Translations under genes and position numbers: made by a program
The notes under the pieces: model-generated
Database searches by the model: none
Told to the model about the DNA's origin: nothing
Seen by the model: the letters and a program-made list of their open reading frames with translations, nothing else
From: Minisyncoccota bacterium
Lineage (GTDB): Bacteria > Patescibacteriota > Minisyncoccia > Phycocordibacterales > UBA12079
Direction of reading: 5' to 3'
Length of the DNA stretch: 41,598 nt
NCBI GenBank assembly: GCA_023135835.1
Contig: JAGLSI010000004.1
Coordinates: 1 to 41,598, forward strand
Shown here: positions 6,498 to 22,160 of the stretch, piece after piece
Numbering within the stretch: the stretch's first letter is position 1
How the letters are laid out: each line of letters starts with the position of its first letter

Positions 6498-7613
6498 ATG
6501 AACAAAAAATTAAGTTGGGGAATAGGAATTATTGTGGCAATAGTAATAATTTGGTTTGGATTCTTTAATAAACCAAGTGAACCAGTTTCAACAGAACCGA
6601 TTAAGATTGGAGGTTTATTTGGACAAACAGGATTTGCGGCTTTTGCTGGGGAAGCATCAAAAAATGGTTTTATAATGGCGATTGAAGATTCAGGAATAGA
6701 TGTTGATTATGTAATAGAAGATTATAATTCAGATTTAAAAACAACAGTATCAGCCGCTAAAAAATTAATTGATATAGATAAAGTATCTGTTATTGTTGGT
6801 CCTGAATGGGTTGAGTTTGGAGAAGTAATAGTCCCTATTTCAGAAGAGACAGAAACTTTGTTTATTTCTCCTTGGATGAATTTAGAATTAGATTGGGCAA
6901 AGTCTCCTTATTATTTTTCAATGACACCAAGTAATCGAAATATGATAAGAGAAGAAATTAAATATATGGAGGATAAAGATATGAATAATATAATAATAAT
7001 TTATCATAACAATTCATTTGCATTGGCTAGTATAAATTTACTTAAGGATGAGTTATTAAAAAATAATAATATAAAAATAGTTGAAGAGGTAAAAGTAGGG
7101 CAAGACCAAACTGATTTTAGGACAGAATTAACTAAGATTAAAGAAAATAATCAGTATGATGTTATTTATACTGTATTTGCTACAGATGATGGACAAGGAG
7201 TTTTCAATAAGCAATTAAAAGAACTCGGAATTGATTCTCCTGTTTTCTTAAGTTTGGCTAGAGCAGAATCTAACATTTTATTAGAAAGTTTTGGGGAATA
7301 TACTAATGGAATGATTTATTCCAGTTTTATAAAAAACAAAAAAGGTGAAGATTTTAGTAAAAAATATGAAGAAAGATTTGGTGTAGAACCGCTCGCTTTG
7401 AGCGCAGCAGGAGCTTATGATGCTACTACATTGATATTAGAAGCAATGAAAAAAGGAGCTAGAACTTCCGAAGAGGTTAAGGAATATTTGTTAAAAATAA
7501 AAAATTATAAAGGATATTCAAATATAATTAATTTTAATGAAAGTGGTCAAGTAGTAGGTGGTAGTCCTGTTATAAAGAGAGTTAATGGAAATAATCCGGT
7601 AATTTTAAGATAA
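6498..7613 (+). CDS. ABC transporter substrate-binding protein (paralog 3)
   Basis: IKIGGLFGQTGFAAFAGEASKNG; start reassigned from 6396 to the ATG of MNKKLSWGIG. Confidence 0.87.
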   Translation: MNKKLSWGIGIIVAIVIIWFGFFNKPSEPVSTEPIKIGGLFGQTGFAAFAGEASKNGFIMAIEDSGIDVDYVIEDYNSDLKTTVSAAKKLIDIDKVSVIVGPEWVEFGEVIVPISEETETLFISPWMNLELDWAKSPYYFSMTPSNRNMIREEIKYMEDKDMNNIIIIYHNNSFALASINLLKDELLKNNNIKIVEEVKVGQDQTDFRTELTKIKENNQYDVIYTVFATDDGQGVFNKQLKELGIDSPVFLSLARAESNILLESFGEYTNGMIYSSFIKNKKGEDFSKKYEERFGVEPLALSAAGAYDATTLILEAMKKGARTSEEVKEYLLKIKNYKGYSNIINFNESGQVVGGSPVIKRVNGNNPVILR

Positions 7614-14080: not shown

Positions 14081-14686
14081 TTAATTATCAAATTTTAATT
14101 TAGAAAGAATTTGCTTAAAGATTTCTTCATTTTTACCTTCAAAAATTACTTTAAGTAGTGTATTTCCTTTTTTTACAATCCATACCCTCTGAGGGTTTTT
14201 CTGTTCTGGGCCAGGGTATATCCCTTCTGCCATTAAAATATCTAAATATTGATAATTTGAATTTTCTTTCGTTTCAAGGGATATATAATTAGCTGTAACG
14301 CTTGTTTGTGAATATTCTTCTAACGATATTTCTGATTTATGAACCCCAACTAATAGTTGGTCTTTAGTTATATCTGTTTCAATACTTTTATGTGCTATTC
14401 TGAAATTACGACTATCTTCGGTAGCTTTAATAATATTTCCTTCACTTTCAGCATCTTCAAAACCAACAAAGACGACATAGTCGCTAGGATAATTTAATTC
14501 AAATCCATACTCTTTATTTTTGTAAGTTTTCCAACCAATAGTTTCCTCTCTAGTAACTTTATTTTCTTCTTCGAAATACTCAGGGTCTCCATTTATTTCT
14601 TTTAATATTTTAGGAATAAAAATAATTACAACAACGATAATTACTACAGTTATTAAAACCCCAATCAAACTAAATTCTTTTTTCAT
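14081..14686 (-). CDS. PsbP-related membrane-anchored protein
   Basis: N-terminal TM, then WKTYKNKEYGFELNYPSDYVV and C-terminal ...ILSKLKF. Confidence 0.7.
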   Translation of the reverse strand: MKKEFSLIGVLITVVIIVVVIIFIPKILKEINGDPEYFEEENKVTREETIGWKTYKNKEYGFELNYPSDYVVFVGFEDAESEGNIIKATEDSRNFRIAHKSIETDITKDQLLVGVHKSEISLEEYSQTSVTANYISLETKENSNYQYLDILMAEGIYPGPEQKNPQRVWIVKKGNTLLKVIFEGKNEEIFKQILSKLKFDN

Positions 14687-14921
14687 AATAACTTTAAATT
14701 AGCTTATATACGAAAATAATAACAAAATTATGAAGACTTGAACATAGTCAAATTTTTTTGCTCCATCTGTTAGACAAGTTCAGGACTTTAAACTGGAAGA
14801 AAATCAAAAGAGATTTGAAGTATAGTGGTATTTTAAAAGATTTCCCTAGATTAATACTTCAGAACTAATTTGGTAAAATTAAAAATTGGATAGTTAAAAA
14901 AATAGTGATATAATAAACTTA

Positions 14922-15130
14922 TGTTTGTAAATTAAGACCGCTTTTATTTTTTACCTTTTTTTAAAAAAAGGTCTCTGGGTATTGACTATACTCTGTGTGA
15001 TTTTCATTAGGAATAATGTGTGTCATAAAGAGAGCTGTCTATCCCCTTATACATTGAGAGGTTAGTCTTTATAAGAGATATAAGGTATTGAGAGGTGACT
15101 ATCGAACACCAAAAATAACGTTTACAAACA
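14922..15130 (+). ncRNA. Retron msr-msd ncRNA candidate
   Basis: Perfect 10-bp inverted repeats tgtttgtaaa (14922-14931, a1) and tttacaaaca (15121-15130, a2); internal hairpins; directly upstream of retron-type RT on same strand. Confidence 0.75.
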
Positions 15131-15243
15131 ATTTAACTTGGGTGGTTGTTATTTTCTACCCTCACATTAAATTATGGAATACGTAAATTTAATGATTGTT
15201 TACCTCATTTTACGTGAGTTAAATAAATAAAGACTAATACTCA

Positions 15244-16149
15244 GTGTATAAAGAAAAATCTATATATAATTCAAGAAAAAAGTTACTAAACTTTCTCGAA
15301 GTAAGAGAGAATTTTTTGTATAGTGATTTTTCTAAAAAGTATTTTTTAAAAGAACTACCAAAGAAAAATGGTGGTTTAAGGCCAATAAAACCTCCTGTTA
15401 AAAAACTAAAACTTATCCAAAGGAAAATACTTGATGTAATTTTAGTAAAACAGGAAGTCTTACCTTCTGTATATGGGTTAGATAAGAGTAAAGGAATTTT
15501 AGATAATGCTCGTAGACATCAAGTAAATTCTGATTATTATTTAGTTAATTTAGATATTGAGCAATTTTTCCCGAATGTTAAATATAAAACGGTCAAAAAA
15601 ATCTTTCGTAAATTAGGTTTTTCAAAAGATTGTGCAAATCTTTTAACTAAAATTTGTACAATAGATAAAAGTATTCCACAAGGTTCTCCTACAAGTCCTT
15701 ATTTATCTGCTCTGGCTTTGGAAAAATTAGATAAAAATATATTTAATTTTTGTAAAAAGAATAAATTTATTTTTACTAGATATTTTGACGATATAACAAT
15801 CTCAGGGGAAATAATTAGAGAGAAAAATATAGAATACATAGAAAATCAAATAAAAAAAGCGGGTTATATTTCTCATCCAGATAAGAAAAACTGGTTTAAA
15901 CCAAAGGAACAAAAAATAATAAATAATGTAATTGTATTTTCTGATTTTTTTGATGTAACAGATTCTTATAAAGAAAAGATTAGAAAGTCTTTTTTAGTAT
16001 ACAGAGAAAATAGAAATATAAGAGCTTGGAGAGTGTTTATAGGGAATATGGCTTTTTACATATATGTAAACAAAGATAAAGCTTTAAAATTATTTAAGGA
16101 TATTACAGGAGTTTCTTTTAAAGATAGAAATTTATTGGTAGCTTATTAA
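15244..16149 (+). CDS. Retron-type reverse transcriptase
   Basis: NARRH (retron NAxxH motif), IPQGSPTSPYLSALALEKLD, catalytic YFDDITIS; 301 aa with GTG start. Confidence 0.9.
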   Translation: MYKEKSIYNSRKKLLNFLEVRENFLYSDFSKKYFLKELPKKNGGLRPIKPPVKKLKLIQRKILDVILVKQEVLPSVYGLDKSKGILDNARRHQVNSDYYLVNLDIEQFFPNVKYKTVKKIFRKLGFSKDCANLLTKICTIDKSIPQGSPTSPYLSALALEKLDKNIFNFCKKNKFIFTRYFDDITISGEIIREKNIEYIENQIKKAGYISHPDKKNWFKPKEQKIINNVIVFSDFFDVTDSYKEKIRKSFLVYRENRNIRAWRVFIGNMAFYIYVNKDKALKLFKDITGVSFKDRNLLVAY

Positions 16150-16209: not shown

Positions 16210-18228
16210 ATGAAAAATTTAAATAAATATGATAAAGAGTATTTAATTAAGCTTCTAAAAGATGAAAAAGATTTTCCGTTAGATTATAAATATAAACTTT
16301 TTCCAACGAAGCAAAAAGAATATGAGCTTGCATATGAAGGAAAAATGAGAAAAGAAGATTTAATTGCAAATGAAGATGGTGTTTTTCCTGTTCCATTGCA
16401 AGTAGAAAAAGTCTTTAACGGAGATGAATATAAAATGTTTGATGATGATTGGAAAAATATGATTGTGTTTGGCGATAATCTACAATTTCTCAAAACGGTT
16501 TATGAAAACAAAGACCCTCTTATCAAAAACAAAGTAAAGGGAAAAGTAAAGCTTATTTATATTGACCCGCCATTTGCTACTGCCGATGAATTTAAAAATA
16601 AAGAAGGAGCAAAAGCGTATACCGATAAAAAGAAAGGCGCTGAATTTGTAGAATTTTTACGAAGAAGACTGATTTTAGCACGAGAGATTTTAGCTGATGA
16701 TGGATGTATCTTTGTACATTTAGATCAAAAAATGAGCCATTATATTAAAATTTTAATGGATGAAGTTTTTGGGAAACAAAGCTTTGTAAATGAAATAATT
16801 TGGGGATACAGAATTCAGGGAGTTGGTAAGAAATTTTGGGCTAGGAAACATGATACAATTTTTTATTATAGAAAATCAGGGAATTATACATTTTACCCTG
16901 AAAAAGAAAAAAATATTTACGAGAATCCTTTTATTGATACTAAAGTTCAGAAATCTATCATAGAAAAACTAAAGGAAAAAGACCGAAAAATTATAACAGA
17001 AAATTTAGATAATAATAACAGTATTCCGTATAGATATAAAAAATATCTTTTTGATACATACTATTCTGAAGTTTATGTTAGGGATGTTTGGGATTGTGAT
17101 TATACAAAACCTCTAATTAGTGGTTCAGCAGAATATTTTAACTATCCAACACAAAAACCAGAAGGATTATTTGCAAGAATAATTAAATCTACAACCAATA
17201 AAAATGACATTGTTTTAGATTTTTTTGGTGGTTCAGGTTCAACTATGGCAGTTGCAGAAAAACTTGGCCGTAAATGGATTACTTGTGATTTAGGCAAATT
17301 ATCTCACTATACTATGCAAAAAAGAATTTTGCAGATTCAAGATTCTAAAGATTTAGAAAATCTAAAAGAAAAATATGGAAAGAAAGCAAAAAGTTTTGTT
17401 ACTGCTCAGCTTGGTATGTATGATCTTAAAAAAGCATTAGATTTAGAATGGAAAAAATATCAAGAATTTGTATCAGGACTCTTTGAAGTAGAAGTTAAAA
17501 AAAATATAATTTCAGGATTTGAATTTGATGGGAAAAAAGGAGATTACCCTGTTAAAATATTTGATTATCGTAAATTTAAAGATTCTTCAATTAATGAAAG
17601 TTATTTGAAAGAAATGCATTCTGTTGTTGGTAAAAAAGCGAGCGGAAGAGTATATATAATATCACCTGCGAATTTTGTAGATTTCTTAACAAATTATCAT
17701 GATATTGATGGAATAAAATACTATTTCCTGAAAATCCCGTATCATGTTATTAAAGAATTGCACAAAATGCCTTTCCAAAAACTCCGACAACCACAAAGCA
17801 AGAAAAAAGTAAATGATCTTGATGAGGCGGTTGGTTTTCACTTTATTCGACATCCAGAAGTAAAATCACAACTCAAAAAGAATAAAAATGGTTTAAAAAT
17901 ACTTATCAAGAGTTTTATTAGTCATGAGCTTGAATCTGACAAAACGCAAGACGAAAAAGGGATGAAAAATTTTGAAACACTTTCGGCAGTTTTTGTTGAT
18001 AAGAACTATAACGGCAAAGCATTTGAAATGGACGAAGCTTTTTTTGCCGATGAATTATTACCGAAAAAATCAAAGAAAAGTGATGATGAAAACATAAAAA
18101 AAGAATTGAAAAAATTACAAAAAAAGGGATTGGAAATAAATCTTAAAAAATCTGAACTTGGAAAACAAATCATGGTGATTTATACGGATATTTACGGAAA
18201 TGATTTTACTGAAACTTTTGATATTTAA
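16210..18228 (+). CDS. mod: Type III restriction-modification DNA methyltransferase (Mod)
   Basis: LIYIDPPF catalytic motif; IVLDFFGGSGSTMAVAEKLGRKW SAM-binding motif. Confidence 0.92.
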   Translation: MKNLNKYDKEYLIKLLKDEKDFPLDYKYKLFPTKQKEYELAYEGKMRKEDLIANEDGVFPVPLQVEKVFNGDEYKMFDDDWKNMIVFGDNLQFLKTVYENKDPLIKNKVKGKVKLIYIDPPFATADEFKNKEGAKAYTDKKKGAEFVEFLRRRLILAREILADDGCIFVHLDQKMSHYIKILMDEVFGKQSFVNEIIWGYRIQGVGKKFWARKHDTIFYYRKSGNYTFYPEKEKNIYENPFIDTKVQKSIIEKLKEKDRKIITENLDNNNSIPYRYKKYLFDTYYSEVYVRDVWDCDYTKPLISGSAEYFNYPTQKPEGLFARIIKSTTNKNDIVLDFFGGSGSTMAVAEKLGRKWITCDLGKLSHYTMQKRILQIQDSKDLENLKEKYGKKAKSFVTAQLGMYDLKKALDLEWKKYQEFVSGLFEVEVKKNIISGFEFDGKKGDYPVKIFDYRKFKDSSINESYLKEMHSVVGKKASGRVYIISPANFVDFLTNYHDIDGIKYYFLKIPYHVIKELHKMPFQKLRQPQSKKKVNDLDEAVGFHFIRHPEVKSQLKKNKNGLKILIKSFISHELESDKTQDEKGMKNFETLSAVFVDKNYNGKAFEMDEAFFADELLPKKSKKSDDENIKKELKKLQKKGLEINLKKSELGKQIMVIYTDIYGNDFTETFDI

Positions 18229-18234
18229 TAGAAT

Positions 18235-20841
18235 ATGATTATGCAAGATATTAAAATTTACAAGCAAAAAGATTTAGTTTTGAATGTTTATCAAGACTAC
18301 GATCCGATCAAACTTGATTTGGACGCGTGGGATTCTTTTTTGAATAAACTTTGTACCAACAGAACTTATCAAGTGAAAGCAATAAAAAATGCTGTAATTT
18401 TTCTTGCCTCTGGAAGATATACTAATACAGAAATTTTAGTAGAAGAAAATTACAAAAAAAATGCAGAATTGCAGCTAAAATATTCTTCACTCGATGATTA
18501 TAAAAAACATTTACAACTTCCAAATAAACTTTTTGCAAATATTGATTTAGCAACAGGAACAGGAAAGTCGTATGTCATATACGGTATTGCTCAAATTATG
18601 CTTGGACTTGGTTTGGTAGATAAAGTTTTGGTTTTATGTCCGTCACTTACGATTGAAGACGGACTTATGGAAAAATTTGAAGGGTTAAGTGGAGATGCAA
18701 AACTTAAAAAAGTCATTCCATCAAAATCTCAATATAAAAATCCAAGTATTGTTGATGCTAATGTAACAGTAAAAAACGGCAGTATTTGTGTTGAAAATAT
18801 TCACGCAGTTTATGAAACAACAGGTTCGTCTATTAATGACAGTTTTAAAGGGCAAGGTGAAAGAGTTTTGGTTTTGAATGATGAATCACATCATATTTTT
18901 AATAAAATTTCTGGAAATAGTTCAGAAGCAAAAGGATTGAAACGTTGGAAAGAATTTTTGCTTAATCCCGATTTTAACTTCAAATATATTTTAGGTTTTA
19001 CTGGAACCGCATATTATGAAAATGAATATTTTAACGATATTATTTATCGCTATTCTTTAAGAGAGGCTATTGAAGATAGAATTGTAAAAAATATTGAATA
19101 TGTGCAAAAAGATGACAGTTCAGGAATTGACGAGAGATTTCAAAAAATATATCACAACCATAAAGAAAATTTTGATACATATTCAAAAATCAAACCATTA
19201 TCGATTTTGATTACAAGAGATATTAAAAAAGCAAAAAATCTTCGTGAAGATTTTTTGGACTTTCTTGGAAAGAAGGAAGGAATATCACGAGAAAGTGCCG
19301 AGGAAAAAGTTTTGATTGTTACCTCGCACAAAGACCATAAAGCAAATTTACCAAAACTAAAAACTGTTGACGAACTAGATGACCCCACAGAATGGATTAT
19401 CTCTGTTTCTATGCTTACTGAGGGTTGGGATGTAAAAAATGTTTTTCAAATTATTCCGTGGGAGGATAAGGCTTTTAATTCAAAACTTCTAATTGCACAA
19501 GTTTTAGGAAGAGGTTTGAGAATACCAGAAGCCTATAAAACACCACAGCCACGAGTTATAGTTTTTAATCATGATTCTTGGAGTAAAAATATTAAATCAC
19601 TTGTTGATGAAGTTTTGGAAATTGAAACAAGAATAATAAGCGAAATTATAAAAACTGGGACGAGAGCAAGATATAACTTTGATGTTTATAATTTAGATTA
19701 CACAAAAGAAGAAGTTGAAATTGCTCATAAACCGAATCCTGTCGTTAATTATTCTCGTATAGAAAAAGAAGGAATCAAACTTGACTCTCAAGTTATTAAA
19801 ACAGAGAAAGGAACATCCTATGAATCAATCGTAGGCGGAGCTGTGCGAGATAAAAATTATCTGATTGAATATGGTACATGGACAGTCCAAGAGATTGTTG
19901 AGCGAATTTATGAAGAATTTGAGATTAGAGACTGGGAGGGTAGAATTTTGCAACTTGGTAAAGAACAATACACACAGAACGATCTTCCTCCAAAAGAAAA
20001 AATAAAAGAAATCATTCTTAAATCAATGAAAAATGTTGAGATTAGAGGGGATAGAGTGATTGAAAAAAATGTGAATAAAATTTTAAATACTTTCGCTACT
20101 TTATTGCGAAAGAAAAGTAAAACAGTTATTCCAAAATTAAAAATTAATGATCCTGTTTTGATTTCTACAAAAAATATAATAAGAGAGAGTTCTGGAATTG
20201 GAAATTTTAGACGAGGATATTCCTTGTTTTACACAAATGACTGGGTAAATGAAATTATAAACAAGGAGCAAAAAGAGATTCTAAATCAAATTATCAATGA
20301 CGAAAGTTTGCCAAAAAGTGCTGACAAAAATCAAAATGAATTTTTATTCAAAACTCCTGTGAATGTTGTGTTTACGAATGCTGAACCAGAGAGAAAATTT
20401 GTAGAGAATTTATGTAAAAAAGATGTTGCAGAAAAAATTGAAAGTTGGCTTAAATCACGAGATAGAGGATTTTATGGAATTGAGTATAGTTTGCGATATG
20501 GAAGTAAAGAGTCAAAAACTAGAAAATATACTCATCCTACTTTTAATCCTGATTTTTTCATTAAAGTTAAAAAAGGTGATATTGAATATTTTTTGGTTGT
20601 TGAAATAAAGGCAGACAAAGATAATTGTGATGAAAATAAAGCAAAATATAAATATGCAAAAGAACATTTTGAACGATTGAATGAAAAATTGGCTAAACAA
20701 AACATTAAACAAAAATATATATTTCATTTTTTAAGTCCAAATGGGTATACAACGTTTTTTGAGTATTTGAAAGATAGGAGATTATTGAAAGGACAAAGTA
20801 AATTTAGGTGTGAGTTAGAAAATTTACTAGAAGAATCATAA
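18235..20841 (+). CDS. res: Type III restriction endonuclease subunit (Res), DEAD-like helicase plus nuclease
   Basis: LATGTGKSYV Walker A, LNDESHH box, C-terminal NPDFFIKVKKGDIEYFLVVEIKAD (PD-(D/E)xK-like). Confidence 0.92.
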   Translation: MIMQDIKIYKQKDLVLNVYQDYDPIKLDLDAWDSFLNKLCTNRTYQVKAIKNAVIFLASGRYTNTEILVEENYKKNAELQLKYSSLDDYKKHLQLPNKLFANIDLATGTGKSYVIYGIAQIMLGLGLVDKVLVLCPSLTIEDGLMEKFEGLSGDAKLKKVIPSKSQYKNPSIVDANVTVKNGSICVENIHAVYETTGSSINDSFKGQGERVLVLNDESHHIFNKISGNSSEAKGLKRWKEFLLNPDFNFKYILGFTGTAYYENEYFNDIIYRYSLREAIEDRIVKNIEYVQKDDSSGIDERFQKIYHNHKENFDTYSKIKPLSILITRDIKKAKNLREDFLDFLGKKEGISRESAEEKVLIVTSHKDHKANLPKLKTVDELDDPTEWIISVSMLTEGWDVKNVFQIIPWEDKAFNSKLLIAQVLGRGLRIPEAYKTPQPRVIVFNHDSWSKNIKSLVDEVLEIETRIISEIIKTGTRARYNFDVYNLDYTKEEVEIAHKPNPVVNYSRIEKEGIKLDSQVIKTEKGTSYESIVGGAVRDKNYLIEYGTWTVQEIVERIYEEFEIRDWEGRILQLGKEQYTQNDLPPKEKIKEIILKSMKNVEIRGDRVIEKNVNKILNTFATLLRKKSKTVIPKLKINDPVLISTKNIIRESSGIGNFRRGYSLFYTNDWVNEIINKEQKEILNQIINDESLPKSADKNQNEFLFKTPVNVVFTNAEPERKFVENLCKKDVAEKIESWLKSRDRGFYGIEYSLRYGSKESKTRKYTHPTFNPDFFIKVKKGDIEYFLVVEIKADKDNCDENKAKYKYAKEHFERLNEKLAKQNIKQKYIFHFLSPNGYTTFFEYLKDRRLLKGQSKFRCELENLLEES

Positions 20842-21451: not shown

Positions 21452-22160
21452 CTTTTTATGATATAATTATATCATGCCAAGAAATATAAGAGTAGATGTT
21501 GGGGATCAGATATATCATGTGTTAAATAGAGCAAATGCTCGAGTGCAAATTTTTGATAATGATAAAGACTATAAGTTATTTGAGTCTATTCTTGAAGAAG
21601 CAAAAGAAAAATTTGATATGAGAGTTCTTTCTTACTCTATAATGCCAAATCATTGGCATTTAATTTTATATCCAAAAAATGAAGGAGACCTTTCTAAATT
21701 TATGGGATGGTTAAGTAATACACACACAAGGAGATGGCATGCTTTGAAAAAAACAACAGGACAAGGTCATTTATATCAAGGTAGATATAAATCTTTTTTG
21801 TGTCAGGATGATAATTATTTTATTGCTCTTGTTCGTTATGTGGAAAGAAACCCTAAAAAAGCCAATTTGGTTAAAAGAGCAGAAAATTGGAAATGGGGAA
21901 GTGTGTGGAGAAGAGTAAACGGAACAGCAAAACAAAAACAATTACTTTCAGAATGGCCAGTTTCCAAAACTAAGAACTACCTATTTTATTTAAATGAACC
22001 TCAAAATGAAAAAGAAGAACAATCTATACAGAATTCAATCTTAAGAAGCTCTCCTTTTGGTAAAAGTGATTGGGTTGAAAAGGTTGTAATGAAATTTAAT
22101 TTAGAATCAACGATTAGACCGAAAGGAAGACCTAAAAAAGGTGACTGACCCCTTTTCTCC
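21432..22160 (+). mobile_element. RAYT / TnpA_REP element bounded by 26-bp inverted repeats
   Basis: ggagaaaaggggtcagccaccttttt (21432-21457) and aaaaaggtgactgaccccttttctcc (22135-22160), 25/26 complementary. Confidence 0.8.
21474..22148 (+). CDS. REP-associated tyrosine transposase (Y1, HUH)
   Basis: YHVLNRANARVQIF, SYSIMPNHWHLILYPK (HUH-type), GHLYQGRYKSFL, YVERNPKKANLV. Confidence 0.92.
   Translation: MPRNIRVDVGDQIYHVLNRANARVQIFDNDKDYKLFESILEEAKEKFDMRVLSYSIMPNHWHLILYPKNEGDLSKFMGWLSNTHTRRWHALKKTTGQGHLYQGRYKSFLCQDDNYFIALVRYVERNPKKANLVKRAENWKWGSVWRRVNGTAKQKQLLSEWPVSKTKNYLFYLNEPQNEKEEQSIQNSILRSSPFGKSDWVEKVVMKFNLESTIRPKGRPKKGD

Follow-up and report, generated by a model that had tools for sequence, protein, structure and literature searches.

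What does a retron retain in a genome of 0.57 Mb, and where in such a unit does the effector lie? Retrons are systems that use an RNA template to make a small DNA, in most cases as a defence against viruses. The window considered here, the whole stretch of 41,598 nucleotides from contig JAGLSI010000004.1 of a Minisyncoccota bacterium, has Nomurabacteria and other Patescibacteria as its nearest named relatives. It contains a reverse transcriptase (RT) gene preceded by a segment that an earlier note, made from the letters alone, had described as retron msr-msd RNA. The reading as a retron-type RT preceded by an msr-msd-like noncoding RNA (ncRNA) is borne out: the profiles matched by the RT are those of retron families, the NAXXH motif is present, and the closing stem a1/a2 covaries. 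It is thus very probable, judging from sequence comparison, that this patescibacterium with its tiny genome carries a very compact retron unit with an upstream ncRNA.

The reverse transcriptase and its relatives

The enzyme is encoded as follows:

15244 to 16149, forward strand: retron reverse transcriptase, 301 aa, GTG start, with NARRH and YFDD motifs

Among PADLOC profiles, the RT matched RT_III-A best (3.7e-60), then RT_VI (1.2e-57) and RT_II-A (1.1e-56); its match to the NCBIfam model of St85-type RTs lies below the cut-off of that model. Although the best single profile is that of type III-A, no phosphoribosyltransferase (PRTase) or winged-helix genes are found beside the window RT. The closest solved structure is Ec86 RT (1.8e-28). 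In region X, the NAXXH motif that marks retron-type RTs is present as NARRH, and in region Y the VTG triplet is absent, with INN in its place (ING in two relatives). An AlphaFold2 model of the RT made from four sequences was poor (pLDDT 62) and was left unused. The retron unit is single-copy in the 0.57-Mb genome, in which RNase HI is also encoded. Retrons need RNase HI. On this reading, a complete retron occupies about 1.25 kb of this genome.

Three loci, all from Nomurabacteria genomes, carry RTs 45-48% identical to that of the window (L132, which is the same locus as L004, L133 and L134). In the RT tree, these and the window form one clade with a support of 100, and the enclosing set of 16 members, which includes HTH_VI-bearing members, has moderate support (SH-aLRT 87). 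Single-protein scans of genome and viral contigs returned no relatives, a search of viral contigs for the TTGAGAG-repeat DNA pattern gave two chance matches, both without an RT, and further genome searches around two centres did not find a fifth close member. Retrons of Patescibacteria were unreported among the few matches of a literature search of incomplete coverage.

The upstream RNA and its long-range pairings

The ncRNA and its promoter comprise the following elements:

14906 to 14914, forward strand: extended -10 promoter TGATATAAT, with a weak -35 (TGGATA) at 14887 to 14892
14922 to 14931, forward strand: a1, 5' arm of the closing stem, TGTTTGTAAA, pairing with a2
14953 to 14972, forward strand: hairpin I (msr-type), ACCTTTT..AAAAGGT, with conserved pairing
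14973 to 15044, forward strand: variable structured region, likely msd core from its folding in each locus and from retron anatomy
15045 to 15085, forward strand: repeat hairpin CCTTATA/TATAAGG, with the first TTGAGAGG and loop y (15061 to 15072); TTGAGAG..TTGAGAGG pair conserved
15094 to 15110, forward strand: small hairpin GGTG/CACC, with conserved pairing
15121 to 15130, forward strand: a2, 3' arm of the closing stem, TTTACAAACA, perfect reverse complement of a1

Because of the position of the extended -10, the transcript would start at about a1. The motif TGNTATAAT (TGCTATACT in L135) is found directly 5' of a1 in L132, L133, L134, L135 and L136. The elements listed by the earlier note lie where it had placed them, namely the perfect a1/a2 complement, the palindromic hairpin, the stems ccttata/tataagg (15045-15051/15079-15085) and ggtg/cacc (15094-15097/15107-15110), and the direct repeat attgagaggt (15053-15062 and 15087-15096). 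Its architecture was incomplete, since it missed a crossing helix, a loop complementary to the RT start and a micro-ORF.

The whole RNA folds at -51.8 kcal/mol, better than 200 of 200 shuffles (z = -3.1). Dinucleotide shuffles produce a 10-bp inverted repeat at the a1/a2 spacing in 4.2% of cases, a hairpin stem of at least 8 bp in 7.5% and a 10-nt direct repeat at the observed spacing in 4.8%; each feature is therefore only mildly unusual in this A+T-rich stretch, and it is conservation that raises them above chance. The palindromic hairpin, the GGTG/CACC stem and both TTGAGAG copies are kept in L132, L133 and L134 (one copy being TAGAGAGG in L133). Across the four loci, 95% of cells are paired in the 10-bp a1:a2 stem, with three pairs changed on both sides, 100% in hairpin I, with one such pair (ATCTTTT..AAAAGAT in L132 and L133), and 90% in the GGTG/CACC stem, with two; these high percentages are partly built in, because the alignment blocks were hand-trimmed to the pairing segments. 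The argument for RNA conservation is carried by the compensatory changes, by the slid controls, in which 25-56% of cells were paired (large blocks), and by the fixed positions. With four sequences, the independent compensatory events are few.

The region between hairpin I and the repeats is unrelated in sequence across the four loci yet folds in every one of them, a pattern that fits an msd. Since the relatives keep these features with compensatory changes, the segment is regarded as a genuine retron-type ncRNA; absence of such covariation would have counted against a retron RNA, as would loss of a1/a2 in relatives whose RT is intact, and there the stem is maintained by compensatory changes. 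No match to Rfam was found in the ncRNA region. The closing stem, the msr hairpin and the msd-like region 5' of the RT are also found in Retron-Eco1 (Ec86); unlike Ec86, as generally known, the window has a crossing helix, a loop complementary to the RT start and no conserved G beside a1. The earlier note had proposed a branching G at 14936, and neither L132 nor L134 has an equivalent of this base on the inner side of a1; the true branch point may lie elsewhere than next to a1.

Two further sets of complementary segments connect the ncRNA with its flank and with the RT start:

14934 to 14943, forward strand: x, 5' arm of the helix crossing a1:a2, just inside a1
15052 to 15072, forward strand: y, CATTGAG (15052 to 15058) and GTTAGTCTTTAT (15061 to 15072), complementary to the RT start region
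15140 to 15149, forward strand: x', 3' arm of the crossing helix, just outside a2, also pairing with x''
15156 to 15161, forward strand: x'', alternative partner of x', 12 nt 5' of the micro-ORF start codon
15227 to 15246, forward strand: y', target of y, taking in the stop codon of the micro-ORF as well as the leader and start codon of the RT

Segment y can pair with the region where translation of the RT begins, both its ribosome-binding site and its GTG start codon (15061-15072 with 15227-15238, and 15052-15058 with 15240-15246, which includes the GTG). An alignment-free stem scan detected a long-range stem between the inter-repeat segment and the bases before the RT start in all four loci. 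Within the 14 pairs of y:y', 56 of 56 cells are paired across the four loci, and four pairs and six cells have changed on both sides. The covariation score of 0.405 was reached by 0/500 shuffles, whose scores were 0.176 +/- 0.060, and when every loop was compared with every target, the y loop of each species had its own target as best partner. TTGAG is complementary to CTCAG (CTTAG in L132) at the RT start, which would account for the conserved repeats. GACCTCAGTGGATAAT is conserved even in L134, where the GTG does not lie in the RT frame and translation has to begin at an ATG farther on; this points to selection on the RNA. The y:y' pairing is quite likely functional and may control RT translation.

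The second set is made by x, x' and x''. Over the four loci, 90% of the x:x' cells are paired and two of the pairs have changed on both sides; in the window, several pairs of this helix are G-U. For x':x'', a hairpin that closes a little way 5' of the micro-ORF start, the paired share is 96%, again with two such changed pairs. The order a1-x...a2-x' implies a pseudoknot or an alternative state. L135 and L136 have the same layout with a different sequence right after the extended -10 (shuffle P of 0/200 and 0.005, respectively), and L040 has a looser form of it (0.03). Support from the scan for crossing stems came from L133, L134, L135, L136 and L040; the window scanned alone gave P 0.42, with a best pair other than a1/x, and L132 gave 0.195. 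The window misses P <= 0.05 because of the several G-U pairs in its x:x' helix. In the larger comparison, P <= 0.05 was reached by 8/16 loci of the clade against 6/90 others, some of the eight with different stem pairs. The same kind of scan did not find the x:x' layout in four phage type VI loci. No retron paper combining an msr with a pseudoknot appeared in the literature search, whose coverage is incomplete. The helices a1:a2, x:x' and y:y' are mutually crossing, and simultaneous formation of all three is not obvious.

The micro-ORF as candidate effector

Between x'' and the RT lies a short reading frame:

15174 to 15230, forward strand: micro-ORF with ATG start, 18 aa, MEYVNLMIVYLILRELNK, candidate effector

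A micro-ORF of 18-21 codons occupies the same place in the four loci (MDNIIITLFIMYLIICETHKR in L132, MELFVIALLLIFLTIRESNK in L133 and METIIQLLLVLLIIKEANKH in L134). When the leaders were shuffled, an equally or more hydrophobic ORF of 16-25 codons arose with P 0.036 in the window, whose peptide ranks lowest of the four in hydrophobicity, 0.0006 in L132, 0.0002 in L133 and <0.0002 in L134. By an automatic criterion, a short hydrophobic ORF whose end lies at the RT start is found in 11/16 members of the enclosing set and in 3/82 other loci (Fisher 1.2e-8, a descriptive rather than blind value, because some of the ORFs had already been looked at when the set was drawn). The window peptide falls outside this criterion (P 0.077), as do loci with an intervening HTH gene (L048, L069) and one in which the ORF is a few bases off (L050). 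Profiles of Pfam and PADLOC gave no family match for the micro-ORF peptides, and these profiles likewise revealed no sequence homology to type VI auxiliary proteins. A palindrome CTCA...GTGAG inside the micro-ORF was considered as a conserved hairpin and rejected: it is lost in L134 and thus reflects coding conservation.

BLASTP of the ORFs of at least 60 aa around the four RTs identified the RT as the sole gene common to all four, and the predicted micro-ORF is the only element besides the ncRNA and the RT that they share. It is quite likely translated. As to function, the 18-residue membrane-type peptide appears to be the best candidate for the missing toxin of this retron, and the chances that it is the effector are put at about even. 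An ORF of 18-21 codons is under every usual annotation cut-off; some retron RTs are without a recognised effector, and such an ORF would explain this across the whole clade.

Type VI retrons offer the closest comparison. According to a study of phages, in type VI retrons the RT is accompanied by small auxiliary proteins and a protein that binds DNA (PMC8541194), and in Shewanella phage MuM16-1 and Klebsiella phage ST147-VIM1phi7.1, for example, RT_VI and HTH_VI are accompanied by a small auxiliary protein. The window RT groups with type VI-like members, at the moderate support given above, and the candidate membrane-type peptide precedes it at the place that the small proteins hold in the phage loci; its peptide family measures 18-21 aa, whereas the small proteins of four phage type VI loci are 48-67 aa long, cationic and amphipathic. 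The enclosing set includes type VI retrons, as the HTH protein of L048 matches HTH_VI and L050 is an HTH-RT fusion. No HTH gene precedes the RT in the window, L132, L133 or L134, so the family is not filed as type VI. It resembles a pared-down relative of type VI, without the HTH and with the small protein cut to about 20 residues; part of this reading may already stand in the 2020 retron classification. L048 and L050 are themselves type VI-like retrons of Patescibacteria, with HTH and RT in one ORF in L050, and their small proteins, which lie before the HTH or HTH-RT gene, look homologous because they share RALGLLAE-M-I / QALGLLAEAMQI.

Taken as a whole, the locus would be an HTH-less type VI relative with the micro-peptide as probable effector and an ncRNA able to control RT translation, a reading that has roughly an equal chance of being right or wrong. 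The unit would run from the promoter through the structured ncRNA and the gene of the 18-residue hydrophobic peptide to the RT. The RT would copy the variable region into msDNA, and the effector would be the peptide, a membrane toxin made of one helix; the small amphipathic proteins of type VI may play a similar part. The peptide would be restrained by the complex of RT, ncRNA and msDNA, by RNA pairing in the peptide leader, or by both. As long as the ncRNA is free, y:y' would keep the RT from being translated; the block would end once the loop is bound by the RT or reverse-transcribed. Phage attack on the complex would then set the peptide free. Through pairing of y with y', a retron would have a concrete means of keeping RT and ncRNA in balance.

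More tentatively, and with the odds somewhat against it, Patescibacteria might harbour a class of retrons with a single-helix effector of about 20 residues and an ncRNA that regulates its own operon by base pairing. Here, x/x'/x'' would form a switch at the peptide leader, and y:y' a lock on the RT start codon, freed when the loop is bound or reverse-transcribed. If true, this would join the retron with the logic of type I toxin-antitoxin systems. Like type I peptides of the Ibs and TisB kind (PMC8309996), the candidate peptide is tiny, hydrophobic and predicted to form a single helix, and an adjoining RNA has the potential to pair with its leader; unlike in those systems, the RNA of the window lies upstream on the same strand and in the same transcript, and an RT belongs to the unit.

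Alternative readings and neighbouring genes

The micro-ORF could instead encode a regulatory leader peptide whose translation opens the RNA at y' and couples RT translation to its own, the effector being elsewhere or absent. Its stop codon does lie inside y', 14 nt before the RT start, and many members of the wider clade have a short ORF that runs into the RT start. Such peptides, however, rarely keep a hydrophobic helix and a charged tail, and hydropathy exceeds that of shuffles in 4/4 loci; moreover, related loci have longer membrane-type small proteins, which in type VI are separate genes before the HTH. A role as leader peptide is therefore considered rather unlikely.

The next alternative is that a retron-derived RT uses the RNA otherwise, as template or cofactor, without branched msDNA. 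DRT2 works with a pseudoknotted ncRNA (PMC12039810), and the crossing helices, the replaced VTG and the lack of a conserved G beside a1 would fit such a use. The profile and solved-structure matches of the RT are nonetheless clearly retron, the Drt2 model giving just 3e-11, far under its cut-off. NAXXH is present, the RNA is closed by a1/a2 and has an msr-type hairpin, and VTG, which is usual rather than universal, deviates in 2/16 validated retron RTs as well (PMC6868368). A DRT2-like mode of action is thus improbable.

Two genes follow the retron:

16210 to 18228, forward strand: Mod-like N6/N4 methylase, type III-like, directly after the RT
18235 to 20841, forward strand: Res-like helicase, type III-like, after Mod, with a weak TnsA-like end

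That this adjoining restriction-modification pair is the effector, in one operon with the RT, is very improbable: it lies on the same strand as the RT and starts 60 nt after the RT stop with no terminator-like site in between, but the neighbours differ in the other three loci, where only the RT is a common gene and L132 has an unrelated methylase with a weak 40-aa match only, and as retron partner the pair was ruled out by its absence there. It is probably a defence module in its own right within the same island. A gene for a REP-type Y1 transposase is located farther along the window (21474-22148), and a PsbP-like/lipoprotein-like gene (14081-14686) is divergent from the retron.

Several features of other loci were noted alongside. 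In L135, L136, L137, L140 and L144, the RT start codon is immediately preceded by what looks to the eye like a terminator, a strong hairpin with a T run after it; the short upstream ORF continues through this structure, which might reflect translation-coupled antitermination. In L002/L034, a very hydrophobic ORF of 24 codons (MCYGAVRALLIILSLVISILFIAG) lies upstream of the RT at 401, a long fused RT that belongs to the window's own family (G005) and falls outside the clade described here. In L133, a lone DUF3223 gene (HamC2-like) at 6875-7543 overlaps the RT end; DUF3223 is found in Hma-type defence systems.
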